Position numbers and translations under genes: made by a program | The notes under the pieces: model-generated | The model's database searches: none | What the model saw: only the letters and a program-made list of their open reading frames with translations | Told to the model about the DNA's origin: nothing | Virus record (IMG/VR): IMGVR_UViG_3300025011_000131 | Span: 1 to 33,073 of that record | Strand: one strand, 5' to 3' | Source: a virus | DNA: 33,073 bases | Shown here: positions 148-25,775 of the stretch, piece by piece | How positions within the stretch are numbered: the first letter of the stretch is position 1 | Layout: each line of letters opens with the position of its first letter

Positions 148-175
148 TTGACAAATTTCTAAAATCATATATACT
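148..175 (+). promoter_or_regulatory. plus-strand sigma70-type promoter for the CRISPR-repeat-like RNA
   Basis: TTGACA (148-153) is a perfect -35 consensus and TATACT (170-175) matches five of six -10 positions, with a 16-nt spacer. The predicted start, about 182, falls on the first bases of the inverted repeat that encloses the CRISPR-like unit. It reads on the plus strand, opposite to every coding gene in the window, and leads into a terminator at 281-327. Confidence 0.6.
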
Positions 176-187
176 TATATTTAGCAG

Positions 188-217
188 GTTGTACAACTTC
201 CCGTAGGGAATTGAAAC
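188..217 (+). repeat. solitary CRISPR-repeat-like unit (no array)
   Basis: This 30-nt unit begins with the palindrome GTTGTACAAC (188-197), continues with the hairpin TTCCC-GTA-GGGAA (198-210) and ends in ATTGAAAC (210-217). Length of about 30 nt, a 5' GTT, a short internal stem and a terminal ATTGAAAC are the hallmarks of type I-B and type III repeats in clostridia and thermophilic Firmicutes; the last eight bases would be the crRNA 5' handle. No second copy is visible in the next 150 bases or elsewhere, so this is not an array, and no cas gene is present in the window. Confidence 0.55.
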
Positions 218-280
218 ATATTTATACTAATTGTTAACAAATGTTAACAAACATTTAAATCAACCTGCTAATCATGAAAT

Positions 281-327
281 AAAAAATTCTGCTAAGTGAT
301 ACTTTGATATTAATAGCAGAATTTTTT
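281..327. terminator. bidirectional rho-independent terminator
   Basis: A perfect 14-bp inverted repeat, AAAAAATTCTGCTA (281-294) and TAGCAGAATTTTTT (314-327), encloses a 19-nt loop. T-runs follow on the plus strand and end the stem on the minus strand, so it can stop the plus-strand small RNA and the minus-strand operon ending at 396. Confidence 0.85.
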
Positions 328-395
328 ATTTTTTAATGTTTTAATTGCAGATAAATAATAATAATAATGACAATAATAAATTATTCTTCATTAAT

Positions 396-704
396 TTAAT
401 AAAACTTACCATACCATTTAATTTTCTGACCTAAATTGCCTAATACTTTTATTTGTGAAATTTTTAAAAAATCAATAGTTGTAGAACCATTAACCGGAAT
501 GTATACACAATACTCTGATGGCAAAACTTGAATATACAAAGCAGTATTATCTGCTTCAATTGTTAAAGAATTTAAATTTTGATTTTTACCTTGTGCGTCA
601 GTGAAAGAAATTATTTCATTATTAGAAATTGTAGTGTAGAATGGTGTGAGGTTATCTTTATGGATTGATGAAATGTAACCTGAGTGTGCAAGATTTCCTA
701 TCAT
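396..704 (-). CDS. small putative virion protein, 102 aa
   Basis: The product is short, without signal peptide or membrane segment, and looks all-beta: alternating hydrophobic strands such as ALYIQVLPSEYCVYIPV and FLKISQIKVLG. Its C-terminal pattern loosely resembles that of the 94-aa-class protein at 6093-6371. The start has a good GGAAGTG site at an 8-nt spacing. It is the last gene of the structural operon, bounded by hairpins at 776-794 (upstream) and 281-327 (downstream). I do not recognise a family; a small tail or decoration role is inferred from position. Confidence 0.55.
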   Translation of the reverse strand: MIGNLAHSGYISSIHKDNLTPFYTTISNNEIISFTDAQGKNQNLNSLTIEADNTALYIQVLPSEYCVYIPVNGSTTIDFLKISQIKVLGNLGQKIKWYGKFY

Positions 705-775
705 AGATTGTCACTTCCTTTTTATGTATTATTGTGTTTTATTATTGTATTTTATATAATTTCATAAAAATAAAA

Positions 776-14662: not shown

Positions 14663-17600
14663 TTATCGTCTTGCTCTGGATGATTTATTTGCTATTGCGA
14701 AATATGATGATGGGGAGATGTTAATTACTGCTTTTTTAACTTTATCTTCAAAATTTTTGATATACCATAAACCATATGCGACAGCGAAAAATCTATCTCT
14801 ATCAACTGATCTAGTAACTTGTTCGACAGATAATTTACCACCTTGTAAATGTTTAATTTTTAAATTTGCAACTTCTTCTACAAATAAATCAGTTTGAACT
14901 TTTGGTAAAACTACATTATTTATATAATCTTCATTACTTAATGAATAATTATTATTTTGATGTTTATCTAATATTTGAAGTTTTTTACCTTCGACAACAT
15001 CAATAAAATTCACAATTATATCAGAGTTAATACCTTGTGAGTGAAGAGCATATAAACATTTTTCTGAACCCTGAACATCTGGTTCATTATCAGTATTAAT
15101 AGTATCCCAACATTTTAATACTTCTTTAGTAATTGGGTCAATTTGTTCTTTTAATAATTCATCAATAATTCCTTTTCCTAGACCATTTTCGTCACAAACT
15201 GCTTTCTTTGCATTATATAAATTTCTTATTCTTTTAAATTCAATTGCTTGGGCAGTAAAATTTAATCCTTGTTTTAGATTAATTAAATTTACTAATTGCA
15301 TATTTATAATTCTATCTTCTTTATTCCTTTTAACCTTAATTACAGCAATGGAAGATTGATTATTACTTGATTTTTGAGAACGTGCAACATCCATACTAAC
15401 ATAATAATCTGATTTTCCGTCATACATTAATTCTGGTGAAGTTAGTGTTCTTAATTTTAAAAGTTTACTAATATCAACTAATGCACCATCTGAGCTTCCA
15501 CACCATTTCGATTCATAATTCTGAGCAAATGCAATAGGAGACATGTTTTTCTTTTTATCTAAAATTTGTTGTTTAGTTGATCCTCTACCGTACCAACATC
15601 CTAAATGCCAATCTGAGCCTATAACTATTTTCCCTTCTAAATTTATCATATCTTCTTTCATGCGAATACTTCTAGTAAACTCATCACTACCTCTAAATCC
15701 AGCAGTTGTATAAAAATTTACTTTTTGACTTAATTCTTCAGGATTTAATATCCCTAAATCACCAACAGTTAATCTACCATGTTCAACAATTGGGAATAAT
15801 GAATCTTGAAATGTAAAATCATCTATTAAAGCTGATTCTTCAATCATAATTACGTGTCTTCTCTGACCTTTTGAAGTGGAAGAATTTGCCAATACATCCA
15901 CTCTAGAATTATTAACAAATTTAATTTCTGCATCACTTTTAGAAAAACGTGCATCATAAATCTCATTTTTAAACCAAGGATATTTTTTTAATATATCATT
16001 ATATTTGTCTTTTAATAATTCTGCTGCATTTTCCTTTGTTTGAGCAGTAAGTGCAAATTCTATTCCTGGAAAAAATACACAAGCTATAAACATAACAATT
16101 TCTTCATTAAATGTATTATGACTTACAAATCCATTAGATATAAATGAATGAGTATCTAATAATGATAAATCATATACATATTCCATATTATTATCAATTG
16201 ATTTTACTTTCGAGTAAAAATAATTTTTATCATATAAGTATTTCATTTCTTCATATTTTTCACATTCATTTGCATTATTTAATTCTAATAAAAATTCTAA
16301 TTTTTCATAGGTTAATTCATTATTGCCTTTTAAAATATGATAAAGTTTATCATATAGATAAGTATTATATTTTTTAGCATCATTAAAATATGTATTTACA
16401 ATTAATTTTTGATTTGGTAATATATCTTTATTTGGATTTCTTTTTACATTACATATTTTAATTAATAAATCCTGTTTTCTCTGACAAGAAAAACCTATTT
16501 CTTTTAAGAATATATCTATATTTTTACCATAAATTTTTATAACGAATGAATTTGTTTTGTATTTTTTACTAAACTTTAAACTTCTGGTTGATACTATGCC
16601 AAAATTTAACAAAACTGTTTGAACCTGTTTAGACATTTTTTCAGATGCAGTACAAAATTCTAAATATGATTCTGATATTCCTCCATCTGTATCAAATAAT
16701 CCTTTAATAAAAGATGAAACTATATTTTTAGGTGCTTCTAATATACATTTAGGTATTTCTTTATTAAAAGCATTAACTTTATGTAATCCTATTTGATTTA
16801 AATATTCTCTAAAATACTGACCGTTTACAGTATAGTCTATATCATTTTTTTTTCTAACTTTTAATCCTATATTATTTTCAATAAAAGATTTATATTTTTC
16901 TAAAATATCATCATCTTTCGTTGAAAAAACAATAAAATTATTTTGAGTCATTGTTCCATCACCAACTAAATATCCTAATATTAAAGATAAATCTTCTGTT
17001 AATATTTCTGGAACATTACATTTAATTATTTTAGATTTAGACTGAGATTTTAATTTACCTAAAAAATCATCCATATTAAAATTTAAATTTATATTATTGC
17101 CCCATATATTATTATTTCTATTAATTAATAAATAATCTCCCACTTGTATATCTTCTGAATTTTTCCATACAATCACACCATTATTATCCATTATTAATAG
17201 AGGATGTTTTAGAGAAGATTGTATTTCATATCCCTCTTGAGTTTTTATTATTTTGGTATCTCTAAGACCACTAGAAACACCAGCTATAGTTGATTCTAAT
17301 TCTCCATTTCTATTTAATAATTTTACATCTGAAGTGAAATACATATCTCCATCAGATTTTATGTAATTAAAATATTCACCTATTTCTTTCATCCCATCTT
17401 CAGTAAATAAAATAGAATCACCAGAAATACATTTCCCCCAACCTCTAGGGTATACACCATACATACTTAAAAATCTCATTGCTATCCTCATAAAAGTGCG
17501 TTGGTCAGAATGTAATTTTATCCCACCCTTTTGTGGTTTAATTAAATCTAACCATAAATCAGGGTAAAATCTTGCCCAAGAAATAAAATCTACATATTTA

Positions 17601-17740
17601 TCTAAATTACTTCTAAATTGATTATTTTCTTCTTCACCTTTTGGATTTACTGTACTATTAAATTCAGGATTATAATTATTTCTACTTTCTTTTGTTGTAT
17701 GTTTTGCATTTTGACTTTGAAAGTTACCATAAGATGACAT
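14663..17740 (-). CDS. terL: terminase large subunit interrupted by an intein
   Basis: The precursor is 1025 aa; removing residues 104-542 leaves a 586-aa terminase. Exteins show the Walker A loop VYPRGWGK/TF split by the intein, Walker B HVIMIEESALIDD (about 629-641), a KGQRRH coupling segment, and the RNase H-like nuclease acid residues in YVSMDVARS and VCDENGLGKGI. The enzyme packages DNA through the portal. Splicing is needed for activity because the intein divides the ATP-binding lysine and threonine. It starts one base after the stop of the small-terminase-like gene and precedes the portal gene. The ATG at 17740 lacks a strong ribosome site, suggesting translational coupling. Confidence 0.95.
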   Translation of the reverse strand: MSSYGNFQSQNAKHTTKESRNNYNPEFNSTVNPKGEEENNQFRSNLDKYVDFISWARFYPDLWLDLIKPQKGGIKLHSDQRTFMRIAMRFLSMYGVYPRGWGKCISGDSILFTEDGMKEIGEYFNYIKSDGDMYFTSDVKLLNRNGELESTIAGVSSGLRDTKIIKTQEGYEIQSSLKHPLLIMDNNGVIVWKNSEDIQVGDYLLINRNNNIWGNNINLNFNMDDFLGKLKSQSKSKIIKCNVPEILTEDLSLILGYLVGDGTMTQNNFIVFSTKDDDILEKYKSFIENNIGLKVRKKNDIDYTVNGQYFREYLNQIGLHKVNAFNKEIPKCILEAPKNIVSSFIKGLFDTDGGISESYLEFCTASEKMSKQVQTVLLNFGIVSTRSLKFSKKYKTNSFVIKIYGKNIDIFLKEIGFSCQRKQDLLIKICNVKRNPNKDILPNQKLIVNTYFNDAKKYNTYLYDKLYHILKGNNELTYEKLEFLLELNNANECEKYEEMKYLYDKNYFYSKVKSIDNNMEYVYDLSLLDTHSFISNGFVSHNTFNEEIVMFIACVFFPGIEFALTAQTKENAAELLKDKYNDILKKYPWFKNEIYDARFSKSDAEIKFVNNSRVDVLANSSTSKGQRRHVIMIEESALIDDFTFQDSLFPIVEHGRLTVGDLGILNPEELSQKVNFYTTAGFRGSDEFTRSIRMKEDMINLEGKIVIGSDWHLGCWYGRGSTKQQILDKKKNMSPIAFAQNYESKWCGSSDGALVDISKLLKLRTLTSPELMYDGKSDYYVSMDVARSQKSSNNQSSIAVIKVKRNKEDRIINMQLVNLINLKQGLNFTAQAIEFKRIRNLYNAKKAVCDENGLGKGIIDELLKEQIDPITKEVLKCWDTINTDNEPDVQGSEKCLYALHSQGINSDIIVNFIDVVEGKKLQILDKHQNNNYSLSNEDYINNVVLPKVQTDLFVEEVANLKIKHLQGGKLSVEQVTRSVDRDRFFAVAYGLWYIKNFEDKVKKAVINISPSSYFAIANKSSRARR
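16115..17431 (-). mobile_element. LAGLIDADG intein within terL (439 aa)
   Basis: The element begins with Cys104 (CISGDSILFTEDG, block A), has a block B Ser-x-x-His (SLKHPLL), and ends with YDLSLLDTHSFISNGFVSHN, giving the penultimate His and terminal Asn; the +1 extein residue is Thr543. A homing domain between them carries two LAGLIDADG motifs, ILGYLVGDGT (about 254-263) and IKGLFDTDGGI (about 345-355), both with their acidic residue intact, so splicing and DNA cutting both look functional. Insertion lies between Lys and Thr of the P-loop, a highly conserved site that protects the intein from loss. Confidence 0.95.
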
Positions 17741-24545: not shown

Positions 24546-25775
24546 TTATAAATCTAATAAACTTGCTAATTGTGCAGTTTTACTTCTTTCCGTAATATTC
24601 AATTCAACACATCCAAATAATTCATTACCTTTTAAACAATTTATAATTTGTTTCAATCCTGAATTTCTTTCAAAAATAATATCGTCAACTTGTTTAAAAT
24701 CACCATTTATCCATAGTGTACTTCCTTCTGCTAAACGTCCAATAAGTAATTGAATATGTTCTTTAGTCATATTTTCTGCTTCGGAAACATAGATGATAGA
24801 GTTTTTAATATCTCTACCTCTAATAAATCCAAAATGTTGTAATTCAATTTTTCTTTGTTCTATCAACATTTTTAAACCATCTACACCACCGACATGATCC
24901 GCAAGGGGCATAGCGAATGGCAAAAGTTTCTCATTTAAATCGCCCTTGAGGAAACCAACTTCTTTGGAATTTTTTACACCATAATTATTTCTAATAAAAA
25001 TTATTTTATCATATATACCACGTTGAATTAAATTTAGAGCATGTGCAGACATAATTATGTCTTTACCTGATCCATACTTACCATATATACATTTCACAGT
25101 TATATTTTTATTTTGAAATAAATCAAATGCTAATTCTTGTTGTGTATTTCTAGGTTTTATTTTTCCTGTATACATATTATCAATTTGCTTATAAGAGATA
25201 GGTGAGAACCCTTTATTACATATGCATTTTTGCTTATCAACTATAACTCCGTCTTTATCCCTAATAATTAAATATTCATTATTTAACAATCCCCATCTAT
25301 TAGTAGGATTTTGATAATGTTCACTCATTTCCTCGTCTGATAAACAAACTTCTTTATATCCAGTATAAATTTCATCGCTCTTACCATCTTCAAATTCAAA
25401 CATTTTACATGGTAATCCTAATGCTTGTGCTTTGACAATTAAATTGTAATCATCTGAAATAAAAATAATATCATCATTATTAAAATAAACTTGATATGCC
25501 ATATTAAGAATTGCGTTATCATTTCCATGTTCTAAAAATCTACTTGTAATATCATAATCATATTTCATAATTACTTCTACATTATCAGCAGACTTTATAT
25601 CTTTGATTATTTTCCTTGCTTGATATGATATTCTTTCATCTCTTTTTAGTTTGTCTAATTCTTCAATTGAAACTATTGAGATATAGACCTTTTGGTAATC
25701 TTGAAGATTAAATTTTTGGTTTAGGAGTACATTCGTATCACAAAAAACTTTAAGTGTTTTTCGTTCTTCTTTCAT
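24546..25775 (-). CDS. phoH: PIN domain - PhoH ATPase fusion
   Basis: Numbered from the upstream Met (25784), the PIN nuclease domain (about 10-130) shows FCDTNVLL (D16), SIEELDKLK, GNDNAILNMA (D89) and FISDDYN (D111, D112). The PhoH domain carries Walker A GKYGSGKD (234-241), where Asp replaces the usual Thr/Ser after Lys, and a Walker B-like SIIYVSEAENMT with a following LIGRLAEGSTLWINGD. Such fusions act as RNA helicase-nucleases. It is a common host and phage gene type. ATG 25775 is preferred because the ribosome site AAAGGA is 9 bases away; the upstream ATG (25784) abuts it. Confidence 0.85.
   Translation of the reverse strand: MKEERKTLKVFCDTNVLLNQKFNLQDYQKVYISIVSIEELDKLKRDERISYQARKIIKDIKSADNVEVIMKYDYDITSRFLEHGNDNAILNMAYQVYFNNDDIIFISDDYNLIVKAQALGLPCKMFEFEDGKSDEIYTGYKEVCLSDEEMSEHYQNPTNRWGLLNNEYLIIRDKDGVIVDKQKCICNKGFSPISYKQIDNMYTGKIKPRNTQQELAFDLFQNKNITVKCIYGKYGSGKDIIMSAHALNLIQRGIYDKIIFIRNNYGVKNSKEVGFLKGDLNEKLLPFAMPLADHVGGVDGLKMLIEQRKIELQHFGFIRGRDIKNSIIYVSEAENMTKEHIQLLIGRLAEGSTLWINGDFKQVDDIIFERNSGLKQIINCLKGNELFGCVELNITERSKTAQLASLLDL

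Follow-up and report, generated by a model that had tools for sequence, protein, structure and literature searches.

A phage small-RNA gene built around a clamped CRISPR-repeat end, a probable decoy for type III crRNA processing

The RNA gene and its surroundings

The 33-kb stretch of viral DNA analysed here (hereafter the window) is a fragment of a large siphophage-like genome with a G+C content of 25%. Its proteins include a portal family match and a terminase sharing 48.7% identity with the terminase of Psychrobacillus phage Perkons. As the initial annotation had stated, all major ORFs lie on the minus strand, and close to the left end a small-RNA gene is encoded on the plus strand (Table 1). 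The product of the neighbouring phage gene has a 94% identical homologue in a related contig (L007), at the end of which the 3' part of the same element is present as a truncated copy. A homing-endonuclease-like gene (phrog_12131, DUF7487) is also located near the RNA gene, at 903-1856 on the minus strand. The terminase itself (14663-17740, minus strand), with 1025 aa, is ~440 aa longer than most of its relatives, which align across 1-1025 with about 1,760 nt; the extra part is probably an intein-like element.

Table 1. Features of the small-RNA gene and of the adjacent phage gene
Feature	Position	Strand	Description
Sigma-70-type promoter, TTGACA-16-TATACT	148-175	+	11/12 consensus; conserved in L003, L004 and L005
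Clamp, 5' strand, TTAGCAGGTTG	181-191	+	Perfect 11-bp inverted repeat with 261-271; covariation
CRISPR-repeat mimic, TTCCCGTAGGGAATTGAAAC	198-217	+	Same 20 nt as at the 3' end of the repeat in G326, G522 and G523
Cas6-type hairpin	198-209	+	TTCCC/GGGAA stem
8-nt handle, ATTGAAAC	210-217	+	3' end of the mimic
Second hairpin, TGTTAACA-type	231-250	+	Inside the junction, 13-14 nt 3' of the handle
Clamp, 3' strand, CAACCTGCTAA	261-271	+	Pairs with 181-191
Intrinsic terminator	277-331	+	Perfect 18-bp arms (277-294/314-331), 19-nt loop, T-rich tail
Phage gene, 102 aa	396-704	-	Neighbour of the RNA gene, outside the RNA; no family match

The promoter and the terminator, both claimed by the initial annotation, are present and have been conserved together with the repeat unit in relatives. 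Transcription is predicted to start near 181-182 (near 182 in that annotation), where the clamp begins. Taken alone, the promoter match is weak, because a scan of the window returned 16 promoter-like sites against 14.8 expected; it is its conservation which carries weight, the promoter being kept as ACTTGA(C/T)A...ATATATAC/A in three related virus contigs (L003, L004 and L005). The terminator hairpin, previously described as having 14 bp, proved to be stronger than claimed. It was overlooked by the terminator scan because of its loop length, its arms change in compensation among relatives, and it may also serve the minus-strand genes. The RNA from 181 to 335 has a folding energy of -48.3 kcal/mol (z = -8.6), which none of 200 shuffles equalled, and its structured region spans 181 to 271, upstream of the terminator.

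Two parts of this anatomy go beyond the initial annotation, namely the clamp and the second hairpin. In the predicted fold, the clamp encloses the CRISPR unit and the second hairpin, giving a three-way junction. The solitary repeat that had been proposed is thus no bare repeat: its hairpin and handle are the exact 3' end of type III repeats, set in a clamped junction. Promoter, clamp, unit and terminator are all kept in L003, L004 and L005, and the clamp of L004 shows compensatory pair differences relative to that of the window. The Cas6 hairpin of L004 faces competition from another possible fold, CTAC-TTCCC-GTAG. As these relatives were found through the repeat motif, the sameness of the motif is in part due to ascertainment; clamp, promoter and terminator were not search criteria. 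A search with the exact clamp sequence of the window found no version lacking the CRISPR unit, and the element, blasted against phage records, gave chance AT-rich or short matches only.

Repeat-like viral sequences can mediate integration into arrays (PMC10651486), and the element might accordingly be what is left of a captured CRISPR array, or a site of integration within one. This origin is highly improbable: a second repeat and a spacer are absent nearby, and a dedicated promoter, clamp and terminator have been kept with compensatory changes.

A repeat end shared with type III arrays

The initial annotation had delimited a 30-nt repeat unit, GTTGTACAACTTCCCGTAGGGAATTGAAAC, at 188-217. Its last 20 nt match real repeats; its first 10 nt match no host repeat closely and overlap the clamp. 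The comparison with genomic arrays, which that annotation had named as a check, identified TTCCCGTAGGGAATTGAAAC as the end of 37-nt array repeats in three Bacillota genomes (G326, G522 and G523), with near matches in array repeats of four others (G154, G089, G001 and G538). The Cas6 hairpin and the crRNA handle both reside in the 3' part of a CRISPR repeat, and in the repeat of G523, GTCTAAAAACAAAATAATTCCCGTAGGGAATTGAAAC, both the hairpin and the 8-nt handle are identical to those of the phage unit. The 5' 17 nt of the repeats vary among genomes and are without phage counterpart (4 of 17 match in G523); in the phage element, the clamp sequence stands in their place. The closest Rfam model, RF01376 (CRISPR-DR63), has a consensus which differs from the 20-nt mimic in the loop only.

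Two spaced copies of CTTCCCNNNGGGAATTGAAAC were sought in 85,000 species genomes, and one true array was found, adjoining a putative cas4-cas1 fusion and a small gene resembling cas2, both read from translations; further arrays came from sampled Bacillota genomes. The arrays with the exact 20-mer belong to complete or partial type III-A, III-B and III-D loci, Cas6 being detected at two of them. The G523 locus is of type III-A, with Csm1, Csm3, Csm4, Csm5, Cas6, a TIGR02221 protein and Cas4-Cas1; that of G522 is of type III-B (Cmr1, Cmr3, Cmr4, Cmr6 and Cas10); and that of G326 is III-D-like, with Csx10, Cas10, RAMP genes and, elsewhere or nearby on that contig, three Cas6 genes. All these loci being of type III, the second half of the earlier assignment to types I-B or III holds and type I-B is not indicated. 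Judging from these matches, the mimicked repeat appears to be that of Bacillota type III systems; the genomes with arrays are bearers of the repeat rather than proven hosts. The spacers of the fetched arrays gave no convincing match to the phage and its relatives, the best among the matches listed being 15 nt.

Two peculiarities of the loci were noted. On contig 16 of G326 (L042 and L043), degenerate repeats, single or few, are scattered over ~40 kb among the cas genes, besides the array; their 3' 20 nt are constant and their 5' halves vary. At L045:10469-13342 (+), a Cas4-Cas1 fusion of 957 aa has ~300 extra N-terminal residues and a Cas1 match in two pieces.

The same design in unrelated viruses

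Three other virus contigs (L058, L130 and L143), for which no homology to this phage was detected, carry the same fold as the window element, with a clamp, a repeat hairpin and handle, a second hairpin and a terminator. They differ from it in clamp and loop sequences and in having a handle-less repeat-like hairpin outside the clamp. L058, whose contig has a G+C content of 0.42 and an integrase-like gene beside the element, shares the window's repeat end; CTAATTCCCGTAGGGAATTGAAAC is held there in a different 10-bp clamp (AGCGTCCACA/TGTGGACGCT) with a second hairpin and a strong terminator. The L058 element is also detected by a model derived from the first four elements; used as a query, it matched phages only once, weakly, and plasmids not at all. 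Another repeat family is present in L130 and in L143, a phage contig of 142.8 kb: the repeat end, GCCTACCTATRAGG(G)ATTGAAAC, is enclosed there by 13-bp clamps and accompanied by a promoter, a second hairpin and a terminator. These two elements are alike but differ in clamp length, with one compensatory clamp change. A portal homologue search in both contigs, run without a positive control, found none, and protein homology to the window group returned an empty result in the parts examined.

In L058, a second CRISPR-like hairpin, TTAGCCTACCTATGAGGGAT, lies directly before the clamp (691-710, plus strand), without a TGAAAC handle; it corresponds to 20 nt of Rfam CRISPR-DR2, a different family from the clamped unit. 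In L130 and L143, similar hairpins, handle-less or degenerate, are found 3' of the clamp.

The clamp was assessed by a helix test on 70 solitary motif hits in viruses, in which the top seven helices were those of the clamped elements and motif hits in coding frames did not stand out. Among 20000 shuffles, as good a helix was obtained 28 times for the window, 19 for L004, 56 for L058, 4 for L143 and 155 for L130, the last count concerning the unbulged part of the clamp only. In a five-member alignment, both partners have changed in 8 of the 11 clamp pairs, and the observed score was not attained by any of 500 shuffles; the helix test outweighs this result because the alignment was fitted to the structure. 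An MFE-based test, which counts any enclosing pair, was weaker than the helix test (p = 0.10 for the window).

Several motif hits were rejected. In seven contigs (L006, L057, L059, L060, L062, L064 and L065), the motif TTCCCNNNGGGAATTGAAAC lies inside a conserved protein-coding frame and was considered a chance occurrence, as was the motif in an open frame of L061. Conserved coding sequence with a chance TTCCCNNNGGGAATTGAAAC is a trap for repeat-based scans. The hit in L063 lies near a tRNA-like sequence and is without a clamp, and L056 is a chance match to the clamp pattern.

That the RNA is a structural or regulatory RNA of the phage, unrelated to CRISPR, with a hairpin which resembles a repeat by chance, is quite unlikely. 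The window's Rfam matches to CRISPR families are indeed weak, as such an origin would have it. Against it, the exact 20-mer is expected by chance, from base composition, about 8e-9 times per window, repeats of a different CRISPR family are enclosed in this fold in other phages, and L058 holds its second CRISPR-like hairpin of yet another family.

Proposed mode of action and relation to known elements

The display of a repeat end in a clamped fold, together with the same design in unrelated phages, argues that the RNA is probably a decoy for CRISPR machinery. As read from sequence and predicted folds, the gene would encode an RNA of ~150 nt whose target, on balance, is crRNA processing by Cas6 in the type III CRISPR-Cas of the host. 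The RNA would be transcribed by host RNA polymerase, its 5' end being buried in the clamp, and the three-way junction would display the hairpin and the handle of the repeat to Cas6. Cas6 would bind the RNA, possibly cutting between 209 and 210, and the clamp would hold both cleavage products together. With 5-16 free nt before the next hairpin, the handle-bearing piece would be unable to act as a guide. Cas6, and perhaps handle-capturing Csm/Cmr subunits too, would be stuck in dead-end complexes and the supply of crRNA would drop.

The spacing between handle and second hairpin is 5-16 nt across the clamped elements, which leaves little room for a guide; together with the near absence of RNA upstream of the hairpin, it speaks for a decoy which occupies Cas6 rather than for a guide. 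A phage mini-crRNA, made of one repeat and a guide and directing host CRISPR at a rival phage or a host gene, is therefore very unlikely. Viruses are known to carry mini-arrays with such roles (PMC11656645) and the post-handle segment is conserved between L130 and L143, but that of the window is self-complementary, AT-rich and without a second repeat, its longest match elsewhere in the window is 14 nt, and the second hairpin occupies the guide position.

The handle raises another alternative. It is intact in all members and predicted to be single-stranded in most folds, and type III effectors recognise the 5' handle of crRNA. After cleavage by Cas6, the released ATTGAAAC piece could then load Csm/Cmr as a blank crRNA, making the effector the main target. 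This variant is unlikely: the second hairpin and the clamp strand 5-16 nt past the handle should hinder loading and, in the passages on RacrIF1 in PMC10651486, mutation of the handle appears without the loss seen for stem-loop mutants.

A decoy acting on Cas6 recalls the RNA anti-CRISPRs (Racrs) already tested, which are solitary repeats with their own promoters aimed at types I-C, I-E, I-F and V-A in the 2023 study; Cas6f binds and cleaves RacrIF1, which also traps Cas7f in a dead-end complex (PMC10651486). Like RacrIF1 and other solitary repeat units (SRUs) (Camara-Wilpert et al., 2023, PMC10651486), the phage element is an intergenic repeat mimic with its own promoter, predicted from sequence, and a hairpin that a Cas6-family enzyme could bind. 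As in SRUs, it matches a known repeat and no further repeat occurs within ~100 bp, the next copy of ATTGAAAC being at 25666. Unlike them, it mimics just the last 20 nt of the repeat, and a covarying clamp closes the unit together with a second hairpin. The action of RacrIF1 depends on 70-76 nt lying 5' of the Cas6 site, whereas hardly any RNA precedes the unit in the phage element, and the cognate loci of the element are of type III, a type absent from the main text of PMC10651486. Compared with the type III repeats of Bacillota, it has the same hairpin and handle (G523), but no array, spacer or related 5' 17 nt. It shares a host-type repeat with viral CRISPR mini-arrays, but these have at least two repeats and a spacer matching a related virus; the phage element is a single unit, without a second repeat or usable spacer. 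From these features, it is likely a structurally distinct variant of the known Racr/SRU elements, a clamped solitary repeat with type III as the likely target. Its shape is not described in the text of PMC10651486 or in that of a 2024 review.

A broader proposal, whose chances fall a little short of even, is that clamped solitary repeats form a distinct structural class of RNA anti-CRISPRs, which arose or spread among unrelated phages, whose junction traps Cas6 on its own product, and which, directed against type III, would be re-targeted by swapping only the 20-nt repeat end. If confirmed, they would provide phages with a compact RNA means to block type III immunity, and the clamp with the 20-nt repeat end would serve as a finding rule, including for elements that full-repeat searches would probably miss. 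SRUFinder requires an identity of at least 90% and a bit score of at least 41.1, with a coverage of at least 90% for full matches and 50-90% for partial ones. The coverage of the window element is about 54% (20/37) and its score, by our own short-blastn calculation, ~40.1 bits, just under the cut-off, so that the published scan may have missed it.

Further candidate solitary repeats were observed in other viruses. At L149:240-520 (+), a TTGACA..TATAAT promoter is followed by CCTATAAGGAATTGAAAC, a bulged clamp (TTGTaAGTT/AACTACAA), a degenerate second repeat and a terminator, a possible further clamped repeat. In about 20 virus contigs (L133, L138, L206 and ~17 others), a conserved noncoding block with CCTATTAGGAATTGAAAC precedes different genes. 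It has a handle-less CCCTATTAGGG hairpin and a closing stem that is shorter and imperfect, for which the group was not counted among the clamped elements; it is possibly another solitary-repeat family.
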